A DNA stretch of 64,000 bases, taken from positions 333,526-397,525 of the forward strand of contig DASZWD010000030.1 in the NCBI GenBank assembly GCA_035546775.1. Reading direction: 5' to 3'. Below are positions 2,881 through 64,000 of the stretch, one piece after another. Both the position numbers and the translations under genes were made by a program. Below the pieces are notes generated by a model, which saw only the letters and a list, made by a program, of their open reading frames with translations, had not been told where the DNA came from and made no database searches. The first letter of the stretch is position 1; each line of letters opens with the position of its first letter. The DNA comes from Acidimicrobiales bacterium. Its GTDB lineage: Bacteria > Actinomycetota > Acidimicrobiia > Acidimicrobiales > JACCXE01.

Positions 2881-4130
2881 GCACGACCTTCCGCTCCCTC
2901 ACGCACCGTAACTTCAAGCTGTTCTTCACCGGCCAGCTGATCTCGCAGGTGGGCAACTGGCTGACGCTGGTGGCCCAGACCCTGCTGGTGTTCAAGCTCA
3001 CCCACTCGGGCACGATGCTCGGCCTGCTGGCCGCCGCGCAGTTCGGGCCGGTCCTGCTGATGGGTGCCTACTCCGGCCTCGTGGCCGACCGCTCCGACAA
3101 GCGCAAGCTGCTGCTGATCGTGCAGAGCCTGGCCATGGTCCAGTCCTTCGCGCTCGCCGGTGTCGCCTTCATGCACCACCCGCCGGTGGCCGCGATCTTC
3201 GCCATCGCCATCGCCGGCGGCTGCGCCACGGCGTTCGACAACCCGGCGCGGCGCAGCTTCGTCGTCGAGATGGTGCCCGACGACGACATCAACAACGCGG
3301 TCTCGCTCAACTCGGCGCTGATGACGGGCTCGCGCATCGTGGGCCCGGCGCTCGCCGGGTTCCTCATCACGACCGTCGGCTTCGGGTGGGCTTTCGCCCT
3401 CGACGGCTTGAGCTACATCGCAGTGCTGGTCGCGCTGGCCCGTATGAACACCGCCGAGCTGCGCCCCGCGCCGGTGACGGAAAAGGGCCGCGGCCAGATC
3501 GCCGAAGGCATCCGCTACGTGCGCAGCATCCCCGACCTGTGGATCCCGCTCATGATGATGACCGTCATCGGCACGCTGGCGTTCAACTTCCAGACGGTGC
3601 TGCCGGTCTTCGTCAAGCGCGACCTCCACGGCGGCGACCTCACCTTCACGCTGCTGTTCAGCGTCGTGAGCACCGGCTCGCTCGTGGGCGCGCTGTTCAC
3701 GGCGCGGCGCAAGGAAGTCCGGCTCAGTCACGTCACGCAGGCGGCGCTTGCCTTCGGCGCCGCGATGACGCTGTGGGCCATCAGCCCGAACTCACCGGTG
3801 GCCTTCCTCGTCGGCGTCACGATCGGCCTGTCGAGCATCGCGTTCATGACGTCGTCGACGACGATCGTGCAGGTGCGGGCCAACCCGTCGATGCGCGGCC
3901 GCGTGCTGGCGCTCCAAGCGATCGTGTTCCTCGGCAGCACCCCGCTCGGCGGACCGATCATCGGGCTCATCTCGCAGCACTTCGGCGCCCGCTACGCCCT
4001 CGGCCTCGGCGCCGCCGGCTGCTTCACCGCCGCCCTGGTCGGCTACCTCAAGCGGTCAGGCCCCTCAGGCCCGGTAGAACGGCTTGTCGCCGGCGATGGT
4101 GACGCGCTCGACGGTGCGCTTGCTGGGTAG
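2877..4130 (+). CDS. MFS efflux transporter
   Basis: 417 residues with about 12 hydrophobic segments and the loop motif GLVADRSDKRKLLL after helix 2, typical of major facilitator drug/siderophore exporters of the EntS-like type. ATGA coupling to the MarR gene indicates a two-gene efflux operon. The last ~22 codons overlap the 3' end of the convergent dioxygenase gene by 66 bases; this Gly/Asp-rich C-terminus is hydrophilic and probably has little function. Substrate unknown. Confidence 0.9.
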   Translation: MSTTFRSLTHRNFKLFFTGQLISQVGNWLTLVAQTLLVFKLTHSGTMLGLLAAAQFGPVLLMGAYSGLVADRSDKRKLLLIVQSLAMVQSFALAGVAFMHHPPVAAIFAIAIAGGCATAFDNPARRSFVVEMVPDDDINNAVSLNSALMTGSRIVGPALAGFLITTVGFGWAFALDGLSYIAVLVALARMNTAELRPAPVTEKGRGQIAEGIRYVRSIPDLWIPLMMMTVIGTLAFNFQTVLPVFVKRDLHGGDLTFTLLFSVVSTGSLVGALFTARRKEVRLSHVTQAALAFGAAMTLWAISPNSPVAFLVGVTIGLSSIAFMTSSTTIVQVRANPSMRGRVLALQAIVFLGSTPLGGPIIGLISQHFGARYALGLGAAGCFTAALVGYLKRSGPSGPVERLVAGDGDALDGALAG

Positions 4131-46178: not shown

Positions 46179-46240
46179 ATCTTAACCGAATTTTCTGCTC
46201 GGTAAATATTTGACCTTCGTCAACCTTCAAGTGGTACGGT
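46179..46240. promoter_or_regulatory. Divergent promoter region with a TTGAC/GTCAA operator-like repeat
   Basis: Minus strand: TAAGAT (46184-46179), 7 nt before GTG 46171. Plus strand: TTGACC (46210-46215), 19 bp spacer, TACGGT (46235-46240), 7 nt before ATG 46248. TTGAC-CTTC-GTCAA (46210-46223) is a perfect inverted repeat over the plus-strand -35, suitable for MarR binding. AAATATTT (46204-46211) is next to it. Confidence 0.55.
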
Positions 46241-46247
46241 GCCGGGC

Positions 46248-47231
46248 ATGAACTCACCTGCTATCGCGACAGAACAGATCGTGAAGCACTTCGGTGGGGT
46301 CGAGGCAGTTCGGGGGGTCGACCTGCAGGTTCCGGCCGGAACCGTCTTCGGGCTCTTGGGCCCGAACGGTGCCGGCAAGACCACCATCGTCCGAATGCTC
46401 ACCACCATTCTCAAACCCACGTCGGGGCGCGCCACCGTGCTCGGCGTCGACTGCGCCAACGAACCCGAACGCGTCCGCCACATCATCGGCCTCGCCGGCC
46501 AGTACGCGGCCGTCGACGAGAACCTCACGGGTTACGAGAATCTGCGGATGGTCGGTCGCCTGACCCACCTTCCGAAGGCGACGATCAAGCCCCGCGCCGA
46601 CGAACTGCTCGAGCGCTTCAACCTGGCGCACGCCGCCAGTCGCCCGGTGCGCACGTATTCGGGCGGCATGCGGCGCCGGCTCGACCTCGCGGCCGCGCTC
46701 GTGCACCGGCCCACGGTGCTCTTTCTCGACGAGCCGACCACCGGGCTCGACCCCCGCAGCCGCAACGGCTTGTGGGGCGTCATCGAGGACCTGGTCAAGG
46801 ACGGCACCACCGTGCTGCTTACGACCCAGTACCTCGAAGAGGCGGACCGCCTGGCCCAGGACCTGGCAGTGATCGACAACGGCGAGGTGATCGCCCGCGG
46901 CACGCCGGCGCACCTCAAGTCGAGCTTCGGCTCCACGATCGCCGAGATCGGCTTTGCCGCCCCCCGCACGGCGCAGCGGGCCCACAAGGCGCTCGCCAAG
47001 CACGCCCCGGCCGACCTGCTCGTCGACGGCCTCACGGTCGAGGTGCGCATCGACTCGGGTGCGGAGGGCGTCACCGCTCTCGTGCGCGCCCTGGACGCCG
47101 CCAAGCTCAAGCCACAGCGCTTCATCGTGCGCGAACCCACCCTCGACGACGTGTTCTTGAGCTTGACGGGTCACGCCGCCGAGGCGATCCCCGAGGTCGC
47201 CGACGACGAGACCGAGCGAGGTGCGGCATGA
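46248..47231 (+). CDS. DrrA-type ABC exporter ATPase
   Basis: 327 residues from ATG 46248 (a GTG at 46239 adds three). Walker A LGPNGAGKTTIVRML, signature YSGGMRRRLDLAAALVH, Walker B LFLDEPTTGLDPRSRN, LLTTQYLEEADRLA, and the DrrA-type C-terminal domain to residue 327. TACGGT lies 7 nt before the ATG, so the transcript is probably leaderless. ATGA with the permease gene. It likely exports a drug or lipid-like compound. Confidence 0.94.
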   Translation: MNSPAIATEQIVKHFGGVEAVRGVDLQVPAGTVFGLLGPNGAGKTTIVRMLTTILKPTSGRATVLGVDCANEPERVRHIIGLAGQYAAVDENLTGYENLRMVGRLTHLPKATIKPRADELLERFNLAHAASRPVRTYSGGMRRRLDLAAALVHRPTVLFLDEPTTGLDPRSRNGLWGVIEDLVKDGTTVLLTTQYLEEADRLAQDLAVIDNGEVIARGTPAHLKSSFGSTIAEIGFAAPRTAQRAHKALAKHAPADLLVDGLTVEVRIDSGAEGVTALVRALDAAKLKPQRFIVREPTLDDVFLSLTGHAAEAIPEVADDETERGAA

Positions 47232-48100: not shown

Positions 48101-48589
48101 ATGGATCCCTGGCAGGTGCTCGACACGCCGCGCTCGGCCGGCGTCGAGGGCGCCAAGCGCGCCTGGCGTGAGCTCGTGGCGTTGTACCACCCCGATCATC
48201 ACGCCGACATGCCGCCGGGCGTCCAGGCGCGGGCCGCTGCCGGACTGCGCCGGGTCAACGAAGCCTGGACGACGATCCGCGACGCCGCCGGGGCGGTTCG
48301 TGCGGCCGACGACACCACCGCGCCGCCACAGGACGAGCCGGGGGTGATCTCGGTCGAAGGTGCGCCCTTCGACGCCAAGCGCCGTATCAAGCAGGCGGCC
48401 AAAGCGGCGAATCTCACCGTGAAGACGGCCGCCGACGCGACCCTCGTCGTGACCCGCGGATCGTTCGCCTCGAAGAACGGACTCGTGCTCGAGTTGACCG
48501 ATCAGGACGGCACGACGGAAGTGCGCGTTGCCGACGGCCCGCTCAGCCTGGCAGAGCCGTTGTTCGCGGCGCTCCGCGGCGACGGGTAG
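48101..48589 (+). CDS. Short J-domain (DnaJ-like) protein
   Basis: 162 residues. N-terminal J domain (about 1-65) with WQVLDTPRSAGVEGAKRAWRELVALYHPDHH, in which the HPD tripeptide that stimulates Hsp70 ATPase is seen (YHPDHH); quoted pieces: WQVLDTPRSAG and LVALYHPDHH. The C-terminal half (about 85-162) is a separate alpha/beta domain (GVISVEGAPFDAKRRIKQAA, GLVLELTDQDGTTEVRV). It is likely a client-specific Hsp70 co-chaperone. Convergent with the acyltransferase, overlapping its end by 47 bases. Confidence 0.85.
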   Translation: MDPWQVLDTPRSAGVEGAKRAWRELVALYHPDHHADMPPGVQARAAAGLRRVNEAWTTIRDAAGAVRAADDTTAPPQDEPGVISVEGAPFDAKRRIKQAAKAANLTVKTAADATLVVTRGSFASKNGLVLELTDQDGTTEVRVADGPLSLAEPLFAALRGDG

Positions 48590-49673
48590 CCGCGCGGTCA
48601 CGGCCGAAGGCGGGCGCCAGCCAGTCGATGCGCTGTAGCGCTTCGTTGACCACAAGTGTGGCGGCGGTTGCCGTCACCAGCGTCACCGCGAACTTCACCG
48701 CGATGGGCCACGACGCCGCGATCACGAGCGCTCCGAGGCCCACGACAAACCCCTGGTGGACGAGATACACCCCGAAGGCACGGTCGCGCGCCCAGGCGTG
48801 CAGCCGCCCGCTGCCGGTGAACGAGCGGCGCGCCCACCCGAGAATGCCGATCACCATGCCGACGCCCGCCACGGCCGACAGCGTCATTTCGACCAGATAG
48901 GCCAGCCAGTCGGACGCGTCGTTCACGACGACGACGCGAAGGAAGAACGGCAGCATGAGCAGCTCTGCCGCCAACCCGATGCGAAGCATCACGACGCGGT
49001 GCTCGTCGACCAGGCGGTCGACGGATTCGAAGCGGCCCACGTAGAACCCGCCGATGAAGAACGCCGAGTAGTAGGCGAAGTTCGCCCAGTCCCACACCAG
49101 TGTCTGCTGCCCCGGCCACGCCCAGCGCAGCAGCACCTGGATGGCGATCATGAGTCCAACGAAGCGAACAAAGGAGCGCCGCGTGACGACGGGCTCATCC
49201 CTGCGGGCGTTCGCCTTGGCGAAGTGCGGCAGGTACAGCAGCGCGAACGTCAGCAGGTAGGCGAGGAACCACAGGTGTGACCACGTGACGGCGACTCCGC
49301 CGATGTGCACCGGCGACCCGTTCGCGGCCACCGTCCGGTCGTGGGCGTGACGCACCTCGATCCAACCGATGAAAACGCACTCGGTGAGGCCGAACACCAG
49401 CAGCGGGATGCCGAGGCGCCGCCAGCGCTCGTTCCGAACCTCCTCGGGGGTGCGACGCTTCAACGCCGCGGCCATCGACCAGCCGGCAAGCACGAAGAAC
49501 AACGGCATGTGCCACTGGTGGACGAAGAGGGCGAACACGTCGAAGCCTTGGAACGAAGCGGCGTTCTTCACGTGATACGCCGGTGTGTAGTCGAAGATCA
49601 TCGCCGTGTGGAACGCCAGCAGCAGAAAGCACGCCGCGGAGCGCAGGTTGTCGATGTCGGGACGACGGTTCAT
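48543..49673 (-). CDS. Acyltransferase-3 family membrane protein
   Basis: 376 residues with about ten helices. The motif IDNLRSAACFLLLAFHTAMI, an FxxxxxHMPLFFVLAGW segment and later AFGVYLVHQGFVVG are typical of the O-acyltransferase (Acyl_transf_3) family; the catalytic His is in LAFHT. It acylates a sugar or lipid at the membrane. ATGA coupling to the TetR gene. The 3' end overlaps the J-domain gene on the other strand. Confidence 0.9.
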   Translation of the reverse strand: MNRRPDIDNLRSAACFLLLAFHTAMIFDYTPAYHVKNAASFQGFDVFALFVHQWHMPLFFVLAGWSMAAALKRRTPEEVRNERWRRLGIPLLVFGLTECVFIGWIEVRHAHDRTVAANGSPVHIGGVAVTWSHLWFLAYLLTFALLYLPHFAKANARRDEPVVTRRSFVRFVGLMIAIQVLLRWAWPGQQTLVWDWANFAYYSAFFIGGFYVGRFESVDRLVDEHRVVMLRIGLAAELLMLPFFLRVVVVNDASDWLAYLVEMTLSAVAGVGMVIGILGWARRSFTGSGRLHAWARDRAFGVYLVHQGFVVGLGALVIAASWPIAVKFAVTLVTATAATLVVNEALQRIDWLAPAFGRDRAATRRRGAPRTTALPG

Positions 49674-50353
49674 GCGGTTCCCCCGGAGATCGCACGCGTG
49701 ATGAGTTCGACGGTGGTGGCGCGCACCGCCTCGGCGTCGAGCCGACCGCCGTCGGGATCGCCGAAGCGGTGGCGCGCCATCCACGTGATCGACTCGACGA
49801 TCCAGCGCGCGGTGACCGCCGCGTCGAGTTGCGGGGCGCGTCGCGCGACGTAGGTCGTGAGGTCGCGCAGCAGCCCTCGACGCACGTTGTCGTAGAAGAG
49901 CGCGGCCACGTCGGGCATGTCGCGAGCCGAGCGCTCGAGGGCGTCGAGCCCCCGCCGATGGTCGCCGATGAGGTCGAACAGTTCTTCGACGATGCGGGTG
50001 CACTCCTCGACGAAGTGGGCCGGCGGCCCCTGGCGTGCCAGCGCGGCGTCGAGCGCCGGCAGCTGCGTGATGTCGTCGAGCGCCTGACGCAACTGGGCGA
50101 GAAACCGCGGCCGCGACGCCACGGTGAGCGGCTTCGGACCTCTGGTCGCCTCGTCTGGGTCGAAGGCGTACAGCGCGCACAGCAGCAGCAGCGCCTCCTT
50201 ACCCTCGACGTAGTTGTAGAGCGTGCCGACCGATACGCCGGCGGCCTCGGCCACGTCGGCCATCTGCGCCCGCGAATAGCCCAACCGGCCGAACACCTCG
50301 AGGGCGGCGTCGACGATGCCGCCGACCCGATTCGGAACCGCCACCCGCGCCAC
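49670..50353 (-). CDS. TetR-family regulator
   Basis: 227 residues. HTH: ALEVFGRLGYSRAQMADVAE then AAGVSVGTLYNYVEGKEALL. The C-terminal ligand domain is helical. It is translationally coupled to the acyltransferase, which it probably regulates. GTG start with CATTAT 6 nt upstream; the promoter overlaps a dyad (50368-50378) and lies next to the end of the LAL regulator gene. Confidence 0.91.
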   Translation of the reverse strand: MARVAVPNRVGGIVDAALEVFGRLGYSRAQMADVAEAAGVSVGTLYNYVEGKEALLLLCALYAFDPDEATRGPKPLTVASRPRFLAQLRQALDDITQLPALDAALARQGPPAHFVEECTRIVEELFDLIGDHRRGLDALERSARDMPDVAALFYDNVRRGLLRDLTTYVARRAPQLDAAVTARWIVESITWMARHRFGDPDGGRLDAEAVRATTVELITRAISGGTA

Positions 50354-50379: not shown

Positions 50380-53001
50380 TTATTGCAAGGGTCGGCGGGC
50401 GTAGGCCGCCGCGAGCTCGACGCGCGACGACAGGCCCAGCTTGGCGAAGACGTGCGACAGGTGCGTTTCAACGGTCCGTGGCGACACGAACAGCTCCGTC
50501 GCCACCTGCGGATTGGTGCGGCCTAGGGCGACCAGGGCGACGACCCGCAACTCCGTCGGCGTGAGCGCCTCCCAACCTGTCGTCGGGCGCTTGGCCGGCC
50601 GCGGCGCGGCGCCGCGGGGCTCGGCCTGCTCGACGGCGGCGGCGAACTGCGCCCGCCGTGGGCTGTCGGCCAGCAGGGCGACGGCCTTTTCGGCGAGCGC
50701 TGGATTGGCCTCTACCAGCGCCTGGCAGCGCAGCGACGCCGCCACCGCGCTCGGCACGCCGCCCGAGCGTGCCGCACCGACCGCCGCGTCCTCGGCCACG
50801 GCCGTCGCCACCTTCGGATCGTCGGCCTCCGTCGCCCAACCCACCAGATCGGGCACGATCAGCGACCAGCCGAGGAAGTACTTGGCGTCGCCCAGCGCGT
50901 TCCACACCATCTGCATCAGCGACGCGGCGCCCGCGACGTCGCCCTCCTCCGCCCGCCGTGTGGCGTCCGCCCAGAAGAACACGTCGATGCCCGCCTCAGG
51001 CCCGTGCGACGCGAAGCGAGCGCGCCCCGCCTCCAGTTCGGCGCGCGCCGCCGCCGTGTCGCCGCGATGCAGGTGAATACGCGCCGCCAAGCCGCGGGGC
51101 AACAACAAGCCAACCGGTGCGCCGACGCCCTCGGCCACGAAGGCGTCGCCCGACTCGATCTCGGCGAGCGCGTCGTCCCAGTTGCCGGCCACGTACTCCA
51201 ACCCGGCCAGCGCCCAGTGGTGCATCGTGGCCGCGGTGGGCTCCCCCTCCTCCAACTCGTACCGCCGACCGTCGGCGAGGGCGCGCCGGGCCTCGTCGAC
51301 GCGGTCGGCGGCGAGCAGCGCCAAGCCGTAGGGGAACTCGGCCGGGATGCGCCGCGCCAGGCGCAGGTCGGCCGCCATGGCGTTCTCGCCATGGCGCAGC
51401 GCCGAAGGCACGTCGCCGGTACAGACCGCGGCGAGCGTGGCCACCATCAGGTTGCGCGCCCGCACCCGGTCGGCGCCGGTCAGCGTCTCGGCGACTGCGA
51501 GGTTGGCGGCCGCCATCTCCGCGGCGCGCCCGGCCGCCCCGTCGAGCACGAGGGCCAGCGCGAGGTCGGTCCGGCGGTCGAGGCGTTCGGCAGGTTCGAG
51601 GTCGGGGCGCTCGGCCAGCGCCGCCAGCTCGTTGACGTCGTCGTGGCTGCGGCCCGAGCGCAACAGCGCCTGCGACAGCGCACCGCGCAGGCGCGGCCCG
51701 AGCCCGGCGTCGTGCGTGCGGTTGAGCACTTCGCGGGCGATGCGCTCGGCGTCGCCCAACCGCCCGATGGCCGTGAGCGGCATGGCCATACCGGCGAGGA
51801 GCGCGTCGCGGCCCGCGGGATCGCGCGTGGCGCTGAGGGCGCGTTCGTAGAGCCGCACGGCCGGGCCCGGTGCGATGTCACGCACCTCTTCGGCGACCTC
51901 GCGCACGAGGTCGAGGGCGTGCGCCGCGCCCAACTCCGTGCTGAGCTCCAGGTGAGGCACGACCTCCCCCGCGGGCGCACCCGCGGCCCGCAGGGCGACA
52001 GCGGCGTCGAGGTGCATGGCGGCGCGGACCGACGGCGAGACGCCCGTATAGATCGCCTCACGGATCAGGTCGTGACGAAAACGCAGTCGGGTGCCGTCGT
52101 CGGCGAGGATGCCGGCGTCGACGGCGGCGGCAAAGTCCGGCAGTACCGACGCCACCGGCCGCTCGAGGAGGCGCGCCGCGTCACCCGGCGCAAACGCACG
52201 ACCGAGGATCGACGCCACCCGCAACAAGTCCACCGTGGCGGGCGACAGCGTCGACACGTGCCGGCTGATCATGTGGGCGAGACCCGGTGGCATCGAAGCG
52301 CCGCCCTCGAGTTCGGCGAGTTCGCCGTCGGCGTGCACCAGTCCGTCGGCGTCGAGCGAGACCAGCAGTTCGTGCAAGAACAGCGGGTTGCCGCCGGCGC
52401 GGGCGAGGTCGGCCGCCAGCCGCGGTCCGCACGCAACACCGAGGACCGACGCCGCGATCTCGACGACCGACGCGTGATCGAGCGGGCCGACGCGCTCGTA
52501 CGTGGCCGTGGGCAACAGTTCGTCGACCAGGCGCGCCAGTTCCGGAGCCCGCGGCACCGATCGGAATGCCAGGACGATTGCGACGGGCAGGTCGCGCAGC
52601 CGGCGACACGCCATGCGCAGCGCCCGCACGGTGTCGACGTCAGCCCAGTGCACGTCGTCGAGGGCGAGGACGACGGGCGAGTGCACCGCGATCTGCTCGA
52701 CGACGCTCACGAGACGATCGGCACCGCGATAGCCCGGGACGTCGAAGGCGTCGGGCAGACCGAGAGCGTCGACCAGCGCCCGGAACGGCCGATGGCGTTC
52801 GAGGTCGTCGCCGCGGCCGGCGAGGACGGCGGCGCCGCGGGCGCCCGCGGTGGAGCACACCGACGCCAGCAGCGCTGACTTGCCGATGCCCGGCTCCCCT
52901 TCGACGAGCACGACGCGGCCGTCCCCGGCCAACGCGGCCGCCACCGCGTTGTTCATGCGTCCGACGAGCGCGTCGCGCCCGACGAGCGAGGGGTCGCCCA
53001 T
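50380..53001 (-). CDS. LAL-type LuxR-family transcriptional regulator with ATPase
   Basis: 873 residues. Starts MGDPSLVGRDALVGRMNNAV; Walker A EGEPGIGKSALLASV near residue 36, Walker B LALDDVHWADVDTV, then a long TPR-like helical region and a C-terminal LuxR HTH (about 805-870: LTPTELRVVALVALGRTNPQVA, then PRTVETHLSHVFAKLGLSS). Such MalT-like regulators switch on transcription on binding ligand and ATP. It lies 29 bases downstream of the giant secreted protein on the same strand, so it may be co-transcribed with it. Confidence 0.9.
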   Translation of the reverse strand: MGDPSLVGRDALVGRMNNAVAAALAGDGRVVLVEGEPGIGKSALLASVCSTAGARGAAVLAGRGDDLERHRPFRALVDALGLPDAFDVPGYRGADRLVSVVEQIAVHSPVVLALDDVHWADVDTVRALRMACRRLRDLPVAIVLAFRSVPRAPELARLVDELLPTATYERVGPLDHASVVEIAASVLGVACGPRLAADLARAGGNPLFLHELLVSLDADGLVHADGELAELEGGASMPPGLAHMISRHVSTLSPATVDLLRVASILGRAFAPGDAARLLERPVASVLPDFAAAVDAGILADDGTRLRFRHDLIREAIYTGVSPSVRAAMHLDAAVALRAAGAPAGEVVPHLELSTELGAAHALDLVREVAEEVRDIAPGPAVRLYERALSATRDPAGRDALLAGMAMPLTAIGRLGDAERIAREVLNRTHDAGLGPRLRGALSQALLRSGRSHDDVNELAALAERPDLEPAERLDRRTDLALALVLDGAAGRAAEMAAANLAVAETLTGADRVRARNLMVATLAAVCTGDVPSALRHGENAMAADLRLARRIPAEFPYGLALLAADRVDEARRALADGRRYELEEGEPTAATMHHWALAGLEYVAGNWDDALAEIESGDAFVAEGVGAPVGLLLPRGLAARIHLHRGDTAAARAELEAGRARFASHGPEAGIDVFFWADATRRAEEGDVAGAASLMQMVWNALGDAKYFLGWSLIVPDLVGWATEADDPKVATAVAEDAAVGAARSGGVPSAVAASLRCQALVEANPALAEKAVALLADSPRRAQFAAAVEQAEPRGAAPRPAKRPTTGWEALTPTELRVVALVALGRTNPQVATELFVSPRTVETHLSHVFAKLGLSSRVELAAAYARRPLQ

Positions 53002-53030
53002 AGGCCACAGCCTCGCGCGCCGGGACGCGC

Positions 53031-56000
53031 TCAGAGCACGATCTGCAACGGCTGGCTCTCCCCCGTTTCGGTCCAGTTGCCCGCCTCGTCGCTGGCGATG
53101 ACCCGGTAGTAGTAGGTGCCGACGCCGAGGAACCCGGTGAGGCTCTGATCGGTGCCGTCCCACTGCACGGAGCCGTTGTACGTCGTACCGGGCGCCACCA
53201 CGATGGTGCCGGCGTCGATCCGGCGCACCGCGTCACCGAGGGCGTCGTGGACGATCACGATCACGTGGAGGTTCCGGTGTTCGTTTTCGACCTGAAGGCC
53301 TGGCAGTTTCGGATCCATCACCGAATAGTTCAGCTTCACGCTCTTGGGTCCGAGCCCGAGCAGCCCGAGGTGGCGCAGCCAGATTTGCGGTGAAGTCGTG
53401 AGCGCTTTCGCCACCGGCGACGTCACGTCCACCGCCACACCGAAGCTGTGGTCGGGCGTCACGTGCCCGACCCGATCGACGGCGCGGTAGGTCACCGTCG
53501 AGCGACCCTCGGGCAGCTCGAAGGGAGCGGTGTAGGTGACGAAGCTGCCGGCGTTACCGATGCGGTACTCGATGTGGTCGACGCCGGAGCTCTGGTCGCC
53601 GTCGTTGGCGACGAGCGCCACGCGGGGCAACCTTCGATACCAGCCCGCTTGCGCGGGATCAGGCGGCAGGATGCGGTGACTGACCGTGGGCGTCGACAGG
53701 TCGACCTGGAACGTCGAGAGCGCGACGGCCGAGTAACGCCCGGCGTTGTCGCGCACGCGGGCGCGCACGTCGTGGATGCCTTCGGGGATCGACTGCGAAC
53801 CAGTCGGCGTGAACAACGGTCCGCCGTCGACCGACACGACGAGCGACGTGGGATCGACACCCGCCGTCGTGTCGGTCGACGACACGCTGAACGTCGGGCT
53901 CGCGGTGTACCACCCGTTCGTGTCGGGCGCGGCGGGCACCGCCGCGATGGCGACGGACGGGTCGTGCGTGTCGACGTTGAACGTCTGGCACTGCTGGCTC
54001 TCCGCGTTGCCGGCGACGTCGACCGCGCTCCAGCACACCGTGCTCGCACCCTCGCCGAGCTTGAACGGTGCGGTGTAGGCCGTCGGCGTGCTGCCGTTCA
54101 CGCTGTAGAAGATGCCAGTGCCGGTGCCGCCCGACAGGCCGGATCCGTCGAGTTTGTCCGTGCCGAGGAACGTCACCCACGGAGCGGTGACGAACCAGCC
54201 GTGCTCGCCGTCGGGCGCTGCGGGCGACGACAGCAACGCCGTCGTCGGCGCCACGTGGTCTACCTTGATCGGCGCCGAGTTGAACATCGGCGAGGGCGTC
54301 GCCGGGTCCTTGTCGTCGTAGAGACGGTTCTGGACCCGGTCGATGGGCGTGAAGTGCACGACGTGGACGCCGCTGGCCGGGATCTCGCCGAACACGCTGC
54401 ACACGTTGAGATCGGGGCACGGCTTCTCGTCGTTGCCGTCGACGCGGTACGCCCACGCCGGGATATTGCCTCCCGAGCCCTCACTACCGTCGCTGTTGAA
54501 CCCGTCGAAAGAACCGATGAGCGAGAAGTTCGGCGGTGTCTTGTACCACCCGTTGGCACCGTCGGGATCGGGGAACACGTTGATGAACGACTGACTGCCC
54601 GGAGGCGTCTGGTCGAGGATCACCGTCGTGTCGAGCGTCGACACGTTGCCGGCGCGATCGACGGCGAACACCCGGATCGTCTTGGCGCCGTCGCCCGACG
54701 TTTGCAGGTGGAATTCATGAGGTTGCCCGTCGTTGACGCAACTCGACAGCACGAAGTCACCCAGGGAATTCCCGTTTGCGTCGGCGTGCGACTCGGCGCA
54801 ACCCAAATACGACAGGTTCGCCTTGTCCGTCTGGTCGACAGCGCTCGTGGCGATGGTGATGTCACGCGTGCCGGTGAACGACACGTAGTGGTCGCCGCCG
54901 CTCGCCCAGCGGCCGCCGCCCACCACGATCGGATCGGTAACGACCGGCGCGGTGTTGTCCACGCCGATGAGGTCGTCGGCGAACGACGGCGCCGGCTCGT
55001 AGCGGCACTGACTCGGCGGCGACCCGCTGGTCGGCGGGCACGCCTGGCCGGCGACGCTGCTCGACCCGGCAGAGGTGAACAGGACCCACTCACCCTCGGT
55101 CATGTTGGTGAGTTGCACGAGGGCATGGGAGACGCTCGTCGCGTTGGTCACCTGGAGCGCGCCGAGCACCGGGATGTGGGCGCCGAAGCGTGTGCCACAC
55201 GGATTGGCGTCGCTCGCCGGGCCGACGCCGTCCATGGCGTGCGGATCGTCGATCGGCTGCGGGTCGGTGCCGTCCGGCTGGTCCTTCTTGAAGCCGCACA
55301 CGTTCACCGTGAAGGTGCTCGTCGGCGCCTGCGCCGTCACGTAGGCGTTGACGACCCCGCTGTGCCAGTACGAGGCGAAGGGATCGAGGTCGCTCTTGCC
55401 GGCGAACGTCGCCTCGACCAGACCAGGCTGACCGGGGAACCCGGGCTGGGCCAGGGACGGGTCGAGCACGATCGAACTGCAGTCGCTGCCGGCGCCGGGC
55501 TGCGGCGTCGGCGGCGTCGGCCCGCTGAGCAGTCCGGCGATCACTTTCACGATGCCACCGCCGCCACCGCCGCCACCGGTGTAGGTGGCGAAGTTGCCGG
55601 GGATGGTCTCGCCGCAGCCGCCGTTGCCTCCGTTGGCGTGCACACTGCCCGACCCGAGGTCGACCTGTTCGCCCATGAGCACGACGGCGCCGCCGCCGCC
55701 ACCGCCGTAGGGATAGGTCGTCTGGCTATCGGGTCCGTTCGTGCCGTCGGCGGTCACGGCGCCACTCACCACGAGGTGCTTGCCGCTCAGCGTGACGGCA
55801 CCGCCCCCTCCGCCCGGCAGGACGAACGCCTGCTGCGGTCCGTTGCCATTGGCGCCGGCTTCCGTCGTGGGGTCGTTCGCCGCGATGTTGCCGAACGACG
55901 ACCCACCGGGGAAGTGATTGCCGTCTTCGCCGCCCTCGCCGATATGGCCGCCACCGCCGAAGCCGTTGGTGCTGCCTGCCGTCGTCGACGACCCGTTGGC

Positions 56001-59000
56001 GTTGACCGCGCCGGCGACCCGGAGATCGCCGAACGTGTCGACTTCGAGGTTGCCCTTGTTCATCACCACCTGACCGCCCGGGTCGACGGTGAAGCTGTCG
56101 GCGAACAAAGTGACGTTGTTGTTCCCTTCGATCTTGCCGCCGGGGTAGATGTGGACGTCGTCGGCGAAGAGGTGGGTGTCGCAGTTGACGGTCTTGAGCG
56201 TGCCGTGAATATCGAGGCTCGTGTATCGCTTCAGGCAGCCGTCGACGGTCACCGTCTGGCCGGCCTCGATCGAGCTCGGCACGACCGGGATCGGATCGCC
56301 GGCGCCCTCGTCGACGTTCTTCGACAGCGGCACGTCGGGAATCGCGTGGCCGGCGAAGGGCAGCGGATCACCGGGATGGAACTGGCCGATGAGGTCATTG
56401 GTCGGCACCTTCTTGCACAGCTGCCAATGCTCGACGATCGACATGAGCGGGCCCGCGGGCGAGATCGGGAAGAAGCCGAGCACGTCGATGACGAAGGGCG
56501 ACGCCAGCCCGTCATCGGGCATCGTGAGCACGGTGGCACTTTCGCCCGGATGCACCGTTAGCGCGTCGGGCGCAGCGTCACTGATGAGATCGGAGATGAG
56601 CGCACCTTCCACGGCGAAGCCCGACGTGTCGTTGAAGTAGTCGCCGTGGTTGGTGACGGGCGCCGGGTTGTCGTCGCAGGTCGAGTACTTCATGTTGACG
56701 AGGTCTCCGGTACCGCCGATGTACTTCACGCCTATCAGCGGAATCGTGCCGATGTAGACGTCGAGCGACACGTTGGCGTTCAGCGAATCGAGGTGCAGCA
56801 GGGGAATCAAACGCACGCTGCTATCGGGCAGGCCCGCGACGCGCTGCACCCCGAGGTTGGCACCAACGCCGCGAATCTTCACGTCCGACACGCGGTCGAG
56901 CAGCATCACCGGAGTCAGCGTCGACTTGATCTCGGTGTGAATGTTGAGGACGTACTCCTCCTGGTTCTGGACGATGTTGAACGGGTCGAGCTTGGCCAGC
57001 ACCTGTGCCGTCACGATGCCGTCGGGCGTCGCGTCGTCGGGCGGGTTCACGTCCTTGAATGCCTGGATGGCGACGCCCGTCGTCGATCCGTCCTGCTCGA
57101 ACACCGCCTTCACGAAGCGGGCGCCGACGGTGTTCGGTGGCGCGAAGTTGAACACCGCCTGGAGGTCGTCGAGCGCGATGTTGTTCTGCACGCAGCCGTG
57201 GTCGGTGAAGAAGCCTCCGCACTCGTCGGGCTTGGGCGGCGGATCACCGGGTTGCGCGTCGCCGGCGCGCAACATCTCGGCGCGCAGTTTGAAGGTGGGC
57301 GACCCGTCGTCCGCGCTCCCGGGCGCGGGCCCGGGCAGGTTCACGATCGACGCGTCGACTCGCAGCGGATGCTCCGGGCGCTGGTTGAGCAGCGTCGGGA
57401 GCGACTCGAAGATGTTGGTCGGCTTCGGCTCCTCCTCGGGAGCGTTCTGCATCTGCAGGCGCAGGTTGGTGTTCTTGTTGACGCGCCCGACGACGTTCAC
57501 GAACGTGCTGCCCCATACCTTCTGGCGCCGCAGGTTGACGGTGACGTCGAGCTCGCCCGGTATGGCCGACGGAGGCAGGTCCGTGTAATCGGTGCCGCCC
57601 GCCGGCTGCTTCAGCTGCGCGGCCGCGGTGTCGGTCAACAGCGTCTGGTTGCCGGCGTCGTCGATGTAGAGCACCGCCAGGCGGCCGAGGTCCTGCACGG
57701 CGCCGCCCGGCGTGCGGGCGACGTAGCCGACGCGCAGGTCGCGCCCGCTGCCGACGATCGCCGGCGTGTCGCCCTGGCGGGGCGTGTTGACCTCCTGCTG
57801 CCACGACTGCACCGGGTACACCGTGACCGAGCCGGGCAGCGGTAGGCGCAGGGCGGCGCGCACGGCGGGATCAGGCTCCGTGCCGACGGTGGCGATCTTG
57901 GCGCGCAGGCCTTCGAACGTGGTCCCATCCGACCAGCCGTTCTGATTCGGCGTTGCGTCGATCTGCTGGTCGTCGGGTACGAGCGTCGCCGCCACCCCGC
58001 CGAGTCCGGCGATCGATCCTTCAGTCCCCTTGTCGAGCACGCCCCAGAGCACGGCGTTCGGCGCGCCGGTGGCGTCGAAGCGCAGCTGCGGCGGCAAGCA
58101 GGCGTTGTCGTCGCGGGCGCGCGTGCCCACGGTGCCGCAACGTTCGCGCAGTGGTTCGTTCGGGTCGTTCGCCTTCGGCACGGTCGTCGACGTGTCGACC
58201 ATCGTCACCTGCACGTGGTCGGGCACATTCGACAGGCCGGCGTCGTGAAGCGCGACGCGCGAGCCGTCGGCCTTGTCCTTGATCAGCCCGATGGCGATTG
58301 GATCGGCGCCGCCGATCGGCTGGACGTCGAGCTGGGCGCAGGTATACGTCGTGGCGTACGACGGGTTGTCGCGGTAGTCGGGGTAGTCGTCCTTGCCGGC
58401 GGGCTGCGGACAGTACGTGTTCGACAGCGACAGCTTCTTGAGCTGTGACCCGGGAGCGCCGCCCACTGATCCGAGACGAGCCCGGGCTTCGAAGCCGTCG
58501 CCGCTGGCACCGATCTGGACCTGCTGCCCGGCGACGTCGGCTACCGGGAACGGACCCTTCGGCGGGGCCATGCGGAAGAACGGTCGATCGGCGTCGCTCC
58601 AACCCTCGTCGTTGATGTCGAAGGTGGCGAAGTGGGCGTCGATCGTGCCGAGCGCGTCCGGCAGCGCCTGGACGACGGCGGTCGTGTCATCGTCGATCTG
58701 ATCATTGCCGTCGTTGCCGTCGCCGATGACGCCGTCGAGCTCGTGCGGCAGCGCGTCGACGTCGAGGCGACCGGACATCACTTTCGCTTCGCTGTCGGTG
58801 CTGCTGCGGAAGAAGGCGTGAACCGACGGGCGGATTCCGCCATCGGGCGTATCGCTCGTCAACTGGAACGCACCCTTGTCGCCCGCCGCGCTGTCGCAGT
58901 ACGACGCGGCGTCGGGGTGGGCCACGGGGTCGACCGGCACCTGGCCGCGGAAGCAGGCCGTGAGGTCGCCCGGCAGGTTCTGCGCGGTGAGGTCGACGAT

Positions 59001-62000
59001 GGTGCGGTCGGCGCGCGCCGCGCCGTTCTCGGTGTTGGTCGTGGCGCTGCCGGTGTCGATGTAGGCGCGCACGCTGCGGCCGGCGCCGAGGCGCAGGTCC
59101 ACGAAGTGCGACGGGTAGCGGAAGCCGTCGGTGTCGACGCCGGTGCGGTAGCCGATGCCGCTGAAGTCGGTGACGTGGACGTCGCTGCGCAGGGCGTCGC
59201 CCGCCTGCAACAACGTGACGGTGTCGAACGACGGATCGATCGCGGGCAGCCCGGCGCGCTGCGCCGGGGCGCCGTCGGTCTCGAAGGGATCCGGACCGAG
59301 GTAGGTGCGCACGTGGGCGTCGATCGCGTGGATCGGCGGCGTGGCGGTGAAGTCGACGGCCAGCGGCGCTTCGGCGGTCTTAGGCGCGTCGTCGGGCAGG
59401 GCCGGCGCGTGCAGCGTGCCGGTGAGCGACTTGCCGATCTGCTGCACGTCGGCGGTAAGGACGAGTACGTTGGCCGTCGCCGGCGCGTCCTTGTGATCCT
59501 GGCGCTCGACCGACGACATCTGCAGTCCGTTGACGTCGATGAGGCGATCGGTTGTGACGGAGAAGTTGTCGGTTGCCTGGTCGGGGTTGTAGTCGAGGCG
59601 CAGTTTGCCCGGCGCTTCGGGCACGGTGACCGTGGCGCACGTGGCGTGCTGCCCCTCGGCTGGAATGCGCGGGTCCTCGCACTGCAGGTCGCCCCACAGG
59701 TCTTCGAAGTGGGCGTGCAGGTTCCCCGGCGGGTCGAACCCACCGGTGTCGAACTGCGCCGCCAGCGGGTTCTTCTTGGTCCGCGGCGGCAGCACGAATA
59801 CGTTCAGCGCGCGCGGCACCGCGTCGGCGCCGAAGGACCCGTTGGTCACGTGGTCCTGTGCGAGCGTGTCGCCGATCTCGCGCACGTGCACGTTGCCCTC
59901 GATGTGGTCGATGGGCGCGCTGGCGCGGTAGGCGATCGACAACGGCGACTTGTCGAGTTTCACTTCGGGGTCGAAGGGCTGCTTGTCGACGCACGGCGTA
60001 AGCGTCGGGTTGTCGACCGGGTAGTCGCCGGGGTCATTCGACAGCCCGTCGGGGCGGAAGCAGATGTCCAGCGTCGACGGCACCTGGTGCACGAGGGCGT
60101 GGCCAACGACGTCAACGCGCTGGTCGGCGCTCGAGGCCACGTTGCGGGCGTCCACGTCGACGTTGAGGTCGGCGTTGCCACCGACCTGGGTGTGGAGACC
60201 GAAGAGGTTCTTGTCGTAGTAACGGAACCCGCCGACGTCGACAAGGCGACCGATCGCCTCGAAGTCGACCACGCCGGAGTCACGCCCGCGCGCGGTCACG
60301 CGGGCGCCGTTGCCGTCGATCGGCAGCGACGGCGGGATGTCGGCGGGGCGGTGCGCCGCCAGGAAGTCGGCGACCGAGAACGCCAACACCTGGATCGGGT
60401 TGTCGGTGTCGAAGCTCGCCTGCTCGACGGTGCCGTCGGCGCCCTTGGTGAACACCGCGTGCATGGCGGAGGAGACGCCGAGGGCGTCGAGGTGCGCCAC
60501 GATCGGCCGGGCGTCGGCGGCACCGTTGTCGGCACCGTGGGTCACGTCGGCCACGATGTCGGGCGCCTGGCCGCTGGGCTGGGGCAACTCGACGTCGACG
60601 TTCATCTGCGGGCCCGCCTGGGCGACGCGCGTTTCGATATGAGACGGCACCTGACGCACGCGCAGGTCGGCGCACGTGGTGAACGCGTCGCCGCACACGG
60701 CCGTCGTCGCCGCGTCGGTGTCGTGGAACTCGAGCGCCGCCTGCACGTCGACCGGCGTGCTGGCGTCGTAGGTCACGCTCATCGGATCAGCCGTCTCGTC
60801 GCTGCCGGCCTTGCGCACGTGGACGTCGATGGCGCTCGGGAGCTGCGAGATCAGGCTCGACGCTTCGACGAACTGGTCGCCGCGCTCGCTGGCGTGCAGC
60901 TGGAGGGGCCGCCCGCCGGTCACGGATCGGAAGCTGGCGTCGAAGCCGCGGTCGACTTCGTCGAAGGCGACGCGGCTGATGCTCTCGACGCGCCCCGTGA
61001 TGAGCTTCTCGTCGCTCGTCTGCTGGAAGTTCACGTACTGCGACTCGGTGGGCACGAACGGCGTGAGCGTGGGGTGGTCGCTGTCGTTGACGGTCGCCTC
61101 GACCGCGCCGATGCCGTCGGGTGCTTCGAAGCGCAGGCGCGCCTTGCCCTGCGGGTCGGTGTCGGGCGGCAGCGCCCATTCGCCTTCGATATGGCTCGGC
61201 ACGCCGTCGATCTCGGCGCGCGCATTGAGCAGCCGATCCGAGGTCTTGCTGTGCATGTTGACCTCGACGTCGGGGAGGCGGCCGTCGGGGTTGGTGGTGA
61301 GGGCGAACGCCCCGCTCGAGTCCGCACCCGACTTGAGGTCGAGCACGGCGTTGCGCGGCAATCGGTCGATGCGCCCGACGATGTGGGTGACGTCGTCGCC
61401 GTGGTTGCTGACCTGGTCGAGCGTGGTGGTCAGGTCGACGTCGGTGTGGAGGCCATGGCTGTAGGTGATCCGCCGCCCGCCGTCGGGCAGCGACTCGAGG
61501 CCGACGCTCACGTTGTTCGGGAACGGCGAGTAGGCCAGTTGCAGCGCGGTGGTCGACGGGTTCGCACCAGTTTCGTCGAAGCCGGTGAGCAGCGTGAGCG
61601 GGCCCTGGTAGTGCGTCGGGCCGGGGTCGGCGCCGCGGATGGTGCCCTTGGTGTCGATGTTGACCGTCATCGGGTCGAATCCCGACGTAAGGCCCTGCAC
61701 GACGGCGGAGAACGTTCCGGGGATAGAACCGCTCTTCGCCGTGTCGTAGCCGAACTTGAACGTGCTCGCCGGGTTGCCGCCGGTGACGTCGACGAGTTGC
61801 AGGTTGGCGGTGATGCGCAGCGGCGGCGACGGCTTGTTCGTCAGCACGGCCGTGAGCAGACGGTCGATGCGGATCGTCGGCGCCAGAATCTGCGGGCTCG
61901 GCGGCACGTTGACACCGCCGATGTCGACCAGGTTGACCGACACGGCGACGTCGGGCAGCAGGTCGCCGTCCACGTCGACCGGCATCGGCGCGACCGGCGC

Positions 62001-62195
62001 GCCCGGCTGGCCCAGCGGAAGGTTGAGCAGGCTGGCGTGGTGCGAGCCCGACACGGCGTCGATCGAGTACAGCGGCAGCGGTACGTAGACGGCGCGCTTG
62101 AGTCGCGGCCCGTCGCCGAGCATGCCCAGCGCCAGCGCGATGCCGAGCGTGGTGAGAATGGCCGCGGTGATGGGGCGTTGCAGGCGCTGCGTCAT
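53031..62195 (-). CDS. Giant secreted/surface repeat protein (3054 residues)
   Basis: N-terminal signal/anchor (ITAAILTTLGIALALGML, about 8-26), then DVDGDLLPDVAVSVNL like an FG-GAP/calcium motif. Residues about 100-1900 are a long series of ~100-residue beta-rich units with recurring cues such as IDRLPRNAVLDL, LISQLPSAIDVHV, VHQVPSTLDICF and ALPHELDGVI, each followed by a PID- or PVD-type strand. A Gly-rich block (about 2080-2220; GGGGGGAVVL) follows. The C-terminal 500 residues hold Ig-like units (YTAPFKLGEG near 2708, YTAPFELPEG near 2892) of OmpL47/Ig type and a FlgD-type Ig end (WTETGESQPLQIVL). No enzyme motif seen. The ATG is coupled to the upstream gene by ATGA. Confidence 0.85.
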   Translation of the reverse strand: MTQRLQRPITAAILTTLGIALALGMLGDGPRLKRAVYVPLPLYSIDAVSGSHHASLLNLPLGQPGAPVAPMPVDVDGDLLPDVAVSVNLVDIGGVNVPPSPQILAPTIRIDRLLTAVLTNKPSPPLRITANLQLVDVTGGNPASTFKFGYDTAKSGSIPGTFSAVVQGLTSGFDPMTVNIDTKGTIRGADPGPTHYQGPLTLLTGFDETGANPSTTALQLAYSPFPNNVSVGLESLPDGGRRITYSHGLHTDVDLTTTLDQVSNHGDDVTHIVGRIDRLPRNAVLDLKSGADSSGAFALTTNPDGRLPDVEVNMHSKTSDRLLNARAEIDGVPSHIEGEWALPPDTDPQGKARLRFEAPDGIGAVEATVNDSDHPTLTPFVPTESQYVNFQQTSDEKLITGRVESISRVAFDEVDRGFDASFRSVTGGRPLQLHASERGDQFVEASSLISQLPSAIDVHVRKAGSDETADPMSVTYDASTPVDVQAALEFHDTDAATTAVCGDAFTTCADLRVRQVPSHIETRVAQAGPQMNVDVELPQPSGQAPDIVADVTHGADNGAADARPIVAHLDALGVSSAMHAVFTKGADGTVEQASFDTDNPIQVLAFSVADFLAAHRPADIPPSLPIDGNGARVTARGRDSGVVDFEAIGRLVDVGGFRYYDKNLFGLHTQVGGNADLNVDVDARNVASSADQRVDVVGHALVHQVPSTLDICFRPDGLSNDPGDYPVDNPTLTPCVDKQPFDPEVKLDKSPLSIAYRASAPIDHIEGNVHVREIGDTLAQDHVTNGSFGADAVPRALNVFVLPPRTKKNPLAAQFDTGGFDPPGNLHAHFEDLWGDLQCEDPRIPAEGQHATCATVTVPEAPGKLRLDYNPDQATDNFSVTTDRLIDVNGLQMSSVERQDHKDAPATANVLVLTADVQQIGKSLTGTLHAPALPDDAPKTAEAPLAVDFTATPPIHAIDAHVRTYLGPDPFETDGAPAQRAGLPAIDPSFDTVTLLQAGDALRSDVHVTDFSGIGYRTGVDTDGFRYPSHFVDLRLGAGRSVRAYIDTGSATTNTENGAARADRTIVDLTAQNLPGDLTACFRGQVPVDPVAHPDAASYCDSAAGDKGAFQLTSDTPDGGIRPSVHAFFRSSTDSEAKVMSGRLDVDALPHELDGVIGDGNDGNDQIDDDTTAVVQALPDALGTIDAHFATFDINDEGWSDADRPFFRMAPPKGPFPVADVAGQQVQIGASGDGFEARARLGSVGGAPGSQLKKLSLSNTYCPQPAGKDDYPDYRDNPSYATTYTCAQLDVQPIGGADPIAIGLIKDKADGSRVALHDAGLSNVPDHVQVTMVDTSTTVPKANDPNEPLRERCGTVGTRARDDNACLPPQLRFDATGAPNAVLWGVLDKGTEGSIAGLGGVAATLVPDDQQIDATPNQNGWSDGTTFEGLRAKIATVGTEPDPAVRAALRLPLPGSVTVYPVQSWQQEVNTPRQGDTPAIVGSGRDLRVGYVARTPGGAVQDLGRLAVLYIDDAGNQTLLTDTAAAQLKQPAGGTDYTDLPPSAIPGELDVTVNLRRQKVWGSTFVNVVGRVNKNTNLRLQMQNAPEEEPKPTNIFESLPTLLNQRPEHPLRVDASIVNLPGPAPGSADDGSPTFKLRAEMLRAGDAQPGDPPPKPDECGGFFTDHGCVQNNIALDDLQAVFNFAPPNTVGARFVKAVFEQDGSTTGVAIQAFKDVNPPDDATPDGIVTAQVLAKLDPFNIVQNQEEYVLNIHTEIKSTLTPVMLLDRVSDVKIRGVGANLGVQRVAGLPDSSVRLIPLLHLDSLNANVSLDVYIGTIPLIGVKYIGGTGDLVNMKYSTCDDNPAPVTNHGDYFNDTSGFAVEGALISDLISDAAPDALTVHPGESATVLTMPDDGLASPFVIDVLGFFPISPAGPLMSIVEHWQLCKKVPTNDLIGQFHPGDPLPFAGHAIPDVPLSKNVDEGAGDPIPVVPSSIEAGQTVTVDGCLKRYTSLDIHGTLKTVNCDTHLFADDVHIYPGGKIEGNNNVTLFADSFTVDPGGQVVMNKGNLEVDTFGDLRVAGAVNANGSSTTAGSTNGFGGGGHIGEGGEDGNHFPGGSSFGNIAANDPTTEAGANGNGPQQAFVLPGGGGGAVTLSGKHLVVSGAVTADGTNGPDSQTTYPYGGGGGGAVVLMGEQVDLGSGSVHANGGNGGCGETIPGNFATYTGGGGGGGGIVKVIAGLLSGPTPPTPQPGAGSDCSSIVLDPSLAQPGFPGQPGLVEATFAGKSDLDPFASYWHSGVVNAYVTAQAPTSTFTVNVCGFKKDQPDGTDPQPIDDPHAMDGVGPASDANPCGTRFGAHIPVLGALQVTNATSVSHALVQLTNMTEGEWVLFTSAGSSSVAGQACPPTSGSPPSQCRYEPAPSFADDLIGVDNTAPVVTDPIVVGGGRWASGGDHYVSFTGTRDITIATSAVDQTDKANLSYLGCAESHADANGNSLGDFVLSSCVNDGQPHEFHLQTSGDGAKTIRVFAVDRAGNVSTLDTTVILDQTPPGSQSFINVFPDPDGANGWYKTPPNFSLIGSFDGFNSDGSEGSGGNIPAWAYRVDGNDEKPCPDLNVCSVFGEIPASGVHVVHFTPIDRVQNRLYDDKDPATPSPMFNSAPIKVDHVAPTTALLSSPAAPDGEHGWFVTAPWVTFLGTDKLDGSGLSGGTGTGIFYSVNGSTPTAYTAPFKLGEGASTVCWSAVDVAGNAESQQCQTFNVDTHDPSVAIAAVPAAPDTNGWYTASPTFSVSSTDTTAGVDPTSLVVSVDGGPLFTPTGSQSIPEGIHDVRARVRDNAGRYSAVALSTFQVDLSTPTVSHRILPPDPAQAGWYRRLPRVALVANDGDQSSGVDHIEYRIGNAGSFVTYTAPFELPEGRSTVTYRAVDRVGHVTPDHSFGVAVDVTSPVAKALTTSPQIWLRHLGLLGLGPKSVKLNYSVMDPKLPGLQVENEHRNLHVIVIVHDALGDAVRRIDAGTIVVAPGTTYNGSVQWDGTDQSLTGFLGVGTYYYRVIASDEAGNWTETGESQPLQIVL

Positions 62196-63172
62196 GGCAG
62201 CAGCGGCGCCGTCGCCGCGGTGTCGATGGACGGGGCGGGTGCGGCGCTGACGTCGAGCGCGTCGGGCACCTGGAACGTGAGGCGGGCCTGCACCACGCAG
62301 CCCACGACGAGGAGAGCGCAGGGTGGATTGGCCGTCGTCGTGGTGTAGGTGACCGAGACCGACCGGCTGGCGCCTGCCGCGATGTCGCCGACGCGCCGGC
62401 TGCTGCCCGGCGCGAACTGCGCGGTGACGCCCGGGGTGAGCGATTCGACGCCGATGAGGTTGACGCCGAAGGCGTCGCCCGGCCCAGTGTTGGCGACGGC
62501 GTAGGTGACGGTGAGGACGCGCTTGAGGTAGTTGAGGTGCAGCGAACCGTCCCAGTGGGCGGTGGCGCCGGGCACGCTGATCGTCGGTTGCAGCACGGCG
62601 ATCGACCCGAGCATGTTCAGGCTGAAGGCGTTGTCGGCGCCCGGGCCGACCGCCGCGCGCATGACGAAGGTCCCGTTCCCCGAGGCGTTGCGGTAGGCGC
62701 CGGTACCGGCCGCCACCACCCAAGCGCCCGCCCCCGACGCCGTGGTGCCGTCGAAGTCCAGGGGCGAGTCGGCGCACGTGCCGCTGCCGGCGGTCATGGC
62801 CAGGCGCAGCGCGCCGTGGGCGTTTGTGAGCCAGGTGTCGCTTTCGGAACGGAGCAGGAAGGCGTGCGAATACGTCCGCGCCGGCGTCAGCGTGTCGGGT
62901 TCGGCGTGCAGGTTGAGACCCAGGCGCACGTCGGCGGGCAGGGTCGCGGTGAACACTCCCGCAGGGACCTTGGCGGCGTACGAGTAGTGCCAGTTGTCAC
63001 CCGACCCGCCATCGGCACACGCCACGCCGGGCACTTCGGCGGTGCCTGTCCCATTGGCGCCGCTTATGCCCAGCGATAACCCATTTGGCCCCGCGGCCTG
63101 CGTCGGCGCATGCGTCCCCAGCACGAACACGACGATGGACAGAACCCCGAGAGCCTTCGCGCGTCGTCCCAC
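62192..63172 (-). CDS. Secreted protein translationally coupled to the giant protein
   Basis: 326 residues. Signal peptide MGRRAKALGVLSIVVFVLGT, cleavage likely after TQAAG. The first mature domain has two Cys pairs (VACADGG, GTCADSP) and an allene-oxide-cyclase/dirigent-like stretch GTGAYRNASGNGTFVM. The second is a DUF11/CARDB-like Ig domain (TYAVANTGPGDAFGVN). GAGGAG lies 7 nt before the GTG. The stop overlaps the start of the giant gene, so the pair is probably made in fixed ratio and acts together at the cell surface. Confidence 0.83.
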   Translation of the reverse strand: MGRRAKALGVLSIVVFVLGTHAPTQAAGPNGLSLGISGANGTGTAEVPGVACADGGSGDNWHYSYAAKVPAGVFTATLPADVRLGLNLHAEPDTLTPARTYSHAFLLRSESDTWLTNAHGALRLAMTAGSGTCADSPLDFDGTTASGAGAWVVAAGTGAYRNASGNGTFVMRAAVGPGADNAFSLNMLGSIAVLQPTISVPGATAHWDGSLHLNYLKRVLTVTYAVANTGPGDAFGVNLIGVESLTPGVTAQFAPGSSRRVGDIAAGASRSVSVTYTTTTANPPCALLVVGCVVQARLTFQVPDALDVSAAPAPSIDTAATAPLLP

Positions 63173-63241
63173 CCGAAAGCTCCTCTGTTATTTGTGCGTG
63201 CCCCGCAGGAGGAGAACGTAAGACAACGGGCTTTGTTACGC

Positions 63242-63267: not shown

Positions 63268-64000
63268 TTAACCGACGCCGAGACGTTCGTACTGCTCGCG
63301 GGGCGCGTCGACGGCGTCGAGGGCCGCGACGAGCATGTCGACCATCTCCTTCTCGACGACGCTCCCCGCGCCCGCCAGTTCTTCGGTCTCGGCCGGATCG
63401 TTGTCGAGGTCGAACAGGTGGTGGCGGTCGACCGGTCCGGCGACCCAGAACGGCAGCATGTCTCCGGGCTGGAACGGTTGGCGGATGACGGGGACGTCGG
63501 AGTGCGGCATGAAGTCGAGCACGGCGCGGCGGTCGGGCTTGGGCAGGCCGACGTTGCGGAAGTGCGTCGGCATCGTCGACCAGCGGTTCGACCACATCGA
63601 CAGCGGGAAGTTGGACTCGACCGCGCTGCGGGCGTACTTACGACGGCCGTCGGTTACCTGCACCCAGTTGCCGTACACGCCGCCGATGGCGCAGTCCCGT
63701 GTGGTGGCGCGGCCGCTCTCGCCCGCGCCGTCGAGCAGTGGCACGAGGGAGACGCCGTGGGTCGGGTGCGGCGCATCGGCGCCGAACACGGCGCGCAGCG
63801 TGGCGTGGATGTCGACCGTCGTCGTGAGCGCGTCGACCGTCTTGGCCTCCATGTCCGGCCACGCGATGAGCAGCGGGATGTGGCCGAGCGTCTCGTACTG
63901 CATCACGTTCGGCTTGCCGAACAGGTCACGCTCGCCGAGGTAGTGGCCGTGATCGGTGCACACGACGAGCATGGTGTCGTCCCACAACTGGTGCCGGTCG
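63268..64000 (-). CDS. Sulfatase, C-terminal part (5' end outside window)
   Basis: About 244 residues are visible; the frame runs off the right edge. TMLVVCTDHGHYLGERDLFGKP (in part: VVCTDHGHYLGERD) is the second metal-binding motif of alkaline-phosphatase-fold sulfatases, followed by TLGHIPLLIAWP and LFDLDNDPAETEELAG, the usual C-terminal block. The CxPxR formylglycine site lies outside the window. It would hydrolyse sulfate esters. It is on the same strand as the secreted pair but is separated from it by a hairpin. Confidence 0.9.
   Translation of the reverse strand, partial: DRHQLWDDTMLVVCTDHGHYLGERDLFGKPNVMQYETLGHIPLLIAWPDMEAKTVDALTTTVDIHATLRAVFGADAPHPTHGVSLVPLLDGAGESGRATTRDCAIGGVYGNWVQVTDGRRKYARSAVESNFPLSMWSNRWSTMPTHFRNVGLPKPDRRAVLDFMPHSDVPVIRQPFQPGDMLPFWVAGPVDRHHLFDLDNDPAETEELAGAGSVVEKEMVDMLVAALDAVDAPREQYERLGVG

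Follow-up and report, generated by a model that had tools for sequence, protein, structure and literature searches.

Gene Pair at the Locus

The window (the whole stretch of 64,000 nucleotides analysed here, from a host genome of 3.75 Mb in 75 contigs) carries two coupled genes on the minus strand, on which all features of the pair given below lie. The upstream gene, P0002 (62192..63172), encodes a secreted partner protein of 326 aa, recognized by its reading frame and by homologues that immediately precede the giant gene in four other genomes; the downstream gene, P0001 (53031..62195), encodes a giant protein of 3054 aa with full-length homologues. They are joined by an ATGA stop/start overlap (62192..62195), and the reading frames, lengths, strand and overlap given for such a pair by the sequence-only reading of this DNA were verified. 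P0002 starts with a GTG codon, 7 bases upstream of which lies an AGAGGAG ribosome site (63180-63186). The same junction takes the form of ATGA in L029, TAATG in L030, a 15-bp gap in L050 and a gap of ~100 bp in L028. The end of a sulfatase gene lies upstream of the pair on the same strand (63268-63999) and is cut by the window edge.

The N-terminus of P0002 is a Sec-type signal peptide with likely cleavage between TQA and AG; it is followed by a domain with a GTGAYR..GSG..PGADN core and by a CARDB/Ig-like C-terminal domain. P0002 has no family match in the libraries searched (Pfam, NCBIfam), and a PDB sequence search with it gave nothing meaningful. The PGADN and GTGAYR..GSG core is invariant across P0002 and its homologues (alignment A2), and a likeness to DUF3224 is faint (P0005, E 0.045).

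Domain Organization of the Giant Protein

Residues 8-29 of P0001 (62109..62174) form its sole strongly hydrophobic segment, a signal anchor or signal peptide that keeps its position among the aligned giants. The N-terminal anchor claimed by the sequence-only reading is thus present at least as such a segment, with none later in the protein. In the window giant the charged residues RLKR come after it, and neither this protein nor most homologues have a clear cleavage motif there; the homologue P0006 has a plausible cleavage site between AKA and AT. The signal-type N-termini indicate export of both proteins.

The segment is followed by a conserved N-terminal domain (residues 33-220; 61536..62099), defined by alignment, with the motifs PVDVDGDLLPDV..VNLVD and YDTG.GGSIP and no family match in Pfam or NCBIfam. 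Residues 221-1261 (58413..61535) make up a repeat region of four degenerate units of ~237-345 residues with amphipathic beta strands and paired cysteines, according to profile repeat analysis and models, and residues 1262-1960 (56316..58412) are a conserved region in which alignment and profile detected neither repeat nor family. For the whole N-part (to ~1960), the first two thirds of the protein, searches found neither a matching family (Pfam, NCBIfam) nor a matching PDB sequence, the PDB sequence search with the giant giving nothing meaningful. Conserved cysteine pairs (501/508, 712/735, 839/853, 1081/1100, 1262/1286 and 1353/1366) fit an extracytoplasmic protein.

The distal end consists of surface domains of known kinds. 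It begins with a G8-like, Gly-rich, beta-helix-like block (residues ~1970-2270; 55386..56288), recognized from its sequence and a G8 match below the Pfam cut-off (E 0.0057). Next come OmpL47-type and Big_13 Ig-like domains (residues ~2410-2935; 53391..54968): Big_13 (PF19077) passes its cut-off in Pfam, and the OmpL47-type NF047446 domain of NCBIfam reaches 103.2 bits against a cut-off of 40, in four stretches. The C-terminal FlgD-like Ig domain (residues ~2936-3054; 53034..53390) has a weak FlgD_ig match in P0001 (E 0.044), and in P0006 the match is above cut-off (E 1.8e-6). These matches bear out the Gly-rich block and Ig-type end that had been proposed and support the idea of an adhesin-like C-terminus. 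No LPXTG, other known wall anchor or hydrophobic segment was found at the C-terminus (..TGESQPLQIVL). The order of anchor, N-part, Gly-rich block, Ig domains and FlgD-like end is constant among the homologous giants.

Distribution of the Pair

With the giant N-part as a single-sequence query, no credible relative was found in samples of 296 genomes of the class and 396 of the phylum; a weak match in the class sample, L003, was discarded as a shadow-frame match. The P0002 query gave homologues in three genomes of the same order, from three other families (E 1e-59, 8e-48 and 1e-36), in each of which a reading frame of ~3,190-4,200 aa comes directly after the P0002 homologue. In BLASTP of the giant against these near relatives, most of the N-part is 31-32% identical and the C-terminal part 31-38%; the four giants can be aligned over their full length, and many residues are invariant, the cysteine pairs among them. 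A conserved-peptide scan of 84,980 GTDB species, one genome each, gave the same three (JAHFUQ010000007.1, JAHFUS010000003.1 and JACDCH010000086.1, recorded as Acidimicrobiia or Actinomycetes MAGs). The gene is missing from the other members of these families that were sampled, which makes its distribution patchy.

A profile of the four N-parts found a fifth copy (E 7e-60) in G714, a single-contig genome of the same phylum listed under a different class, where a secreted protein of 329 aa lies just upstream of the giant. Profile comparison relates this small protein to P0002 with a probability of 98.2 and the G714 giant to the other giants with a probability of 100 (E 8e-137 over 2,798 columns). 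Viral contigs and plasmids yielded no relative of the giant N-part, the plasmid matches being to C-terminal Ig regions only.

Besides the window, the pair thus occurs in three Acidimicrobiia-type MAGs and in a fourth genome that belongs to another actinobacterial class; full-length homologues in all four show that it is not due to chance. In 5/5 genomes the gene of the small partner immediately precedes that of the giant, so that the two secreted genes do co-occur in relatives; a lack of co-occurrence, which the sequence-only reading had named as grounds for refutation, was thus looked for and not seen. These data demonstrate the gene pair, its coupling, the conservation of both proteins and the constant domain order. 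Beyond the pair no neighbour is common to all five loci, which points to a stand-alone module, and its recurrence in five distantly related genomes indicates a real, undescribed one. Neither the N-part nor the small partner nor the two-gene layout has a family match in the libraries searched, in keeping with the earlier remark that the layout was undescribed; a literature search found nothing on giant surface proteins of Acidimicrobiia.

Repeats and Predicted Structure of the N-Part

Single-sequence self-comparison of the giant revealed no significant self-similarity, but once a five-row profile was used, stretches within the N-part proved similar to one another (lowest P 4.6e-7), compared with a best P of 0.078 in 105 column-shuffled control profiles. 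Offsets of ~237, ~354, ~582 and ~814 place the unit starts at about 274, 511, 856 and 1093, which gives the units 274-510, 511-855, 856-1092 and 1093-~1260; secondary offsets (280 vs 341, 237 vs 248) point to hairpin-sized insertions. In residues 1260-1950 the same profile detected no repeat. The repeats that the sequence-only reading had seen are thereby demonstrated to be real, but not its ~100-residue units over ~1800 residues, since the actual extent is ~1,040 residues in units of ~237-345 residues. The L028/L033 giant (L028:1885-14484) owes its 4199 aa to extra N-part repeat material. In this giant roughly residues 402-758 have a second copy at about 1040-1475.

AlphaFold models of residues 33-1000 (4 alignment rows; pLDDT 56.7, pTM 0.47) and 273-640 (5 alignment rows; pLDDT 66.0, pTM 0.64) are of low confidence, and both predict an almost pure, continuous antiparallel meander, not a string of sandwiches. 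The modelled strands are amphipathic, with a mean face difference of 3.05 as against 1.60 for shuffled strands (maximum 2.01 of 500), one face being 72% hydrophobic and the other 30%. Such predicted amphipathicity is what one would expect of a groove, but equally of a closed sheet or of a packed core, and it gives no preference to any of the three. In the first ~250 residues after the anchor the model has strands and one 3-residue helix turn, at a pLDDT mostly below 60.

Fold searches with both models gave no significant match. For residues 33-1000 the nominal top of the Foldseek list, itself not significant, was a lipid-transfer bridge, the LPD-3 complex (9cap_A, E 1.4e-3, prob 0.25); Rhs, ApoB100 and LptDE ranked high as well, likewise without significance. 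LPD-3 is not among the matches listed for the shorter model, for which porins and LptD stand near the top, again without significance. The best VIA-align rows were LptD and outer-membrane barrel meanders at Z 7.0-8.6, values within, or slightly beyond, what the tool calls common. Most of the fold matches listed for these models are long meanders, not strings of Ig domains. Structure prediction, which had been proposed as the means to tell a groove from separate sandwiches, leans towards the groove by the continuous amphipathic meander of these low-confidence models.

Interpretation

We favour, at about an even chance, a two-gene exported module that builds a giant cell-envelope surface protein with an adhesin-type tip. 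P0002 would leave the cell through Sec, its synthesis kept in step with that of the giant by translational coupling, and the giant would also be exported through Sec, its N-terminal segment probably being kept as a membrane anchor. Its first ~1,260 residues would form one long, disulfide-stiffened antiparallel beta meander that spans the cell wall as a rigid stalk, and the Gly-rich beta-helix-like block with the Ig/OmpL47/FlgD-type domains would be the distal, outward end that touches surfaces, polymers or other cells. The probable role of P0002 is to bind the giant, whether as a cap, as a folding helper or as a wall linker. It is in this sense that we infer anchor retention, stalk geometry, adhesion and partner binding; the variation of N-part length by added repeat material is as expected of a stalk. 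Typical adhesin stalks are Ig strings, whereas the giant N-part is one amphipathic sheet in the low-confidence models.

Acidimicrobiia are regarded as monoderm. This bears on the main rival reading, an unlikely one, in which the giant is a bridge-like conduit for lipids or hydrophobic compounds, with a membrane anchor and with residues ~33-1260 or more as an AsmA/TamB- or VPS13/BLTP-like half-tube that leads lipids through the wall to the surface-exposed Ig-bearing end, either by convergence or as an extremely remote relative. The continuous meander in both models, the contrast between its strand faces, the length changes by hairpin or repeat insertion, the nominal LPD-3 match with ApoB100 and LptDE near the top, and the best VIA-align rows all agree with a conduit. 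Against it stand the weakness of the models (pLDDT 57 and 66) and the insignificance of every fold match; moreover, porin-like meanders match equally well, so that the fold match may reflect only a common arrangement. Neither AsmA/TamB nor VPS13 gave a family match: AsmA/TamB-type profiles were absent for P0001 at E<=1 (Pfam, NCBIfam) and for the four aligned giants at E<=0.1 (Pfam). The presumed monoderm host envelope would also speak against a conduit, since AsmA/TamB are described as proteins of diderms (PMC6791001), and their Chorein-N domain has a closing helix right after the anchor (PMC6791001), which has no counterpart in the model, where pLDDT is low. For the AsmA/TamB groove suggested by the sequence-only reading there is thus the predicted continuous amphipathic meander (pLDDT 57-66) but no significant fold match and no family match. 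A new kind of conduit in the N-part has a minority chance, and we think it rather improbable that the whole is a wall-spanning hydrophobic conduit with an adhesin-type tip and a co-made secreted partner, from a family unrelated in sequence to AsmA/TamB/VPS13; such a conduit would deliver lipids or hydrophobic compounds out of the membrane, to the surface of the cell or to a neighbouring cell.

The giant could also be a released matrix or biofilm protein, both proteins assembling outside the cell; cleavage of its signal peptide would make it fully secreted. The cleavable signal peptide of P0002, the plausible site in P0006 and the lack of a C-terminal anchor agree with release, which we nevertheless regard as doubtful given that the window giant and most homologues have no clear cleavage motif and that RLKR follows the segment in the window. 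A three-gene regulated system was suggested by a gene for a LAL-type regulator (AAA_16 and LuxR HTH by domain matches; 50380..53003, minus strand) on the same strand as the pair, whose start (53001-53003) lies 29 bases downstream of the giant. The gene is where the sequence-only reading placed it, but as a third member it is largely refuted as a conserved trait and very improbable: in the synteny comparison no LAL homologue adjoins the pair in the four other loci, and the only match is to a generic 62-residue HTH, several kb off, in L031. It is a neighbour, not part of the conserved module, and a transcript common to the LAL gene and the pair could still exist in this organism.

Compared with known systems, the surface protein that we favour would share a putative N-terminal membrane segment and a long, repetitive, predicted amphipathic beta region with AsmA/TamB and VPS13/BLTP, from which it differs in its Gly-rich, Ig-type distal end. 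Its C-terminal ~500 residues match OmpL47-type and Big_13 surface proteins (NF047446, PF19077) above curated cut-offs, but this likeness is limited to the distal sixth, residues 1-1960 being covered by nothing known, and the full-length OmpL47 equivalog NF047441 is not reached (95.9 bits vs 250). The Gly-rich block resembles part of the N domain of the myxobacterial gliding protein AgmC (NF047640), at 16.7 bits against a cut-off of 275 a low-complexity resemblance only. Gram-positive modular adhesins with Ig stalks are likewise huge, with Ig-type domains and a surface route; unlike them, the giant has no sortase motif, would be anchored at the N-terminal rather than the C-terminal end, has an N-part that is not an Ig string, and is coupled to a secreted partner.

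The significance of the two-gene unit lies in its conservation across two actinobacterial classes, with a main part of ~1,900 residues that has no family (Pfam, NCBIfam) or PDB sequence. Should the meander prove to be a stalk, it would represent a new way of constructing giant surface proteins; should it be a groove, there would be lipid bridges outside the known AsmA/VPS13 lineage and outside diderm envelopes.

Other Genes Near the Pair

In the window, an acyltransferase-3 family membrane protein is encoded downstream of the LAL regulator (48543-50180), and an ABC-transporter ATP-binding protein with a DrrA-type C-terminal domain on the plus strand (46239-47231).

A third family of exported proteins of ~200 aa, for which no known family matched and a PDB sequence search gave nothing meaningful, is found neither beside the pair in the window nor beside L050, nor was it found in the window's genome by a search run without a positive control. 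Its candidacy as a LolA/LprG-like lipid carrier, prompted by its look only, was rejected, no family or structure having matched. In the three near relatives one or two copies come after the giant (L031:19801-21137, L032:19386-20156 and L033:20209-21810), with an extra copy upstream (L033:5276-6256); the members have four invariant cysteines and an N-terminus that is hydrophobic or lipobox-like.
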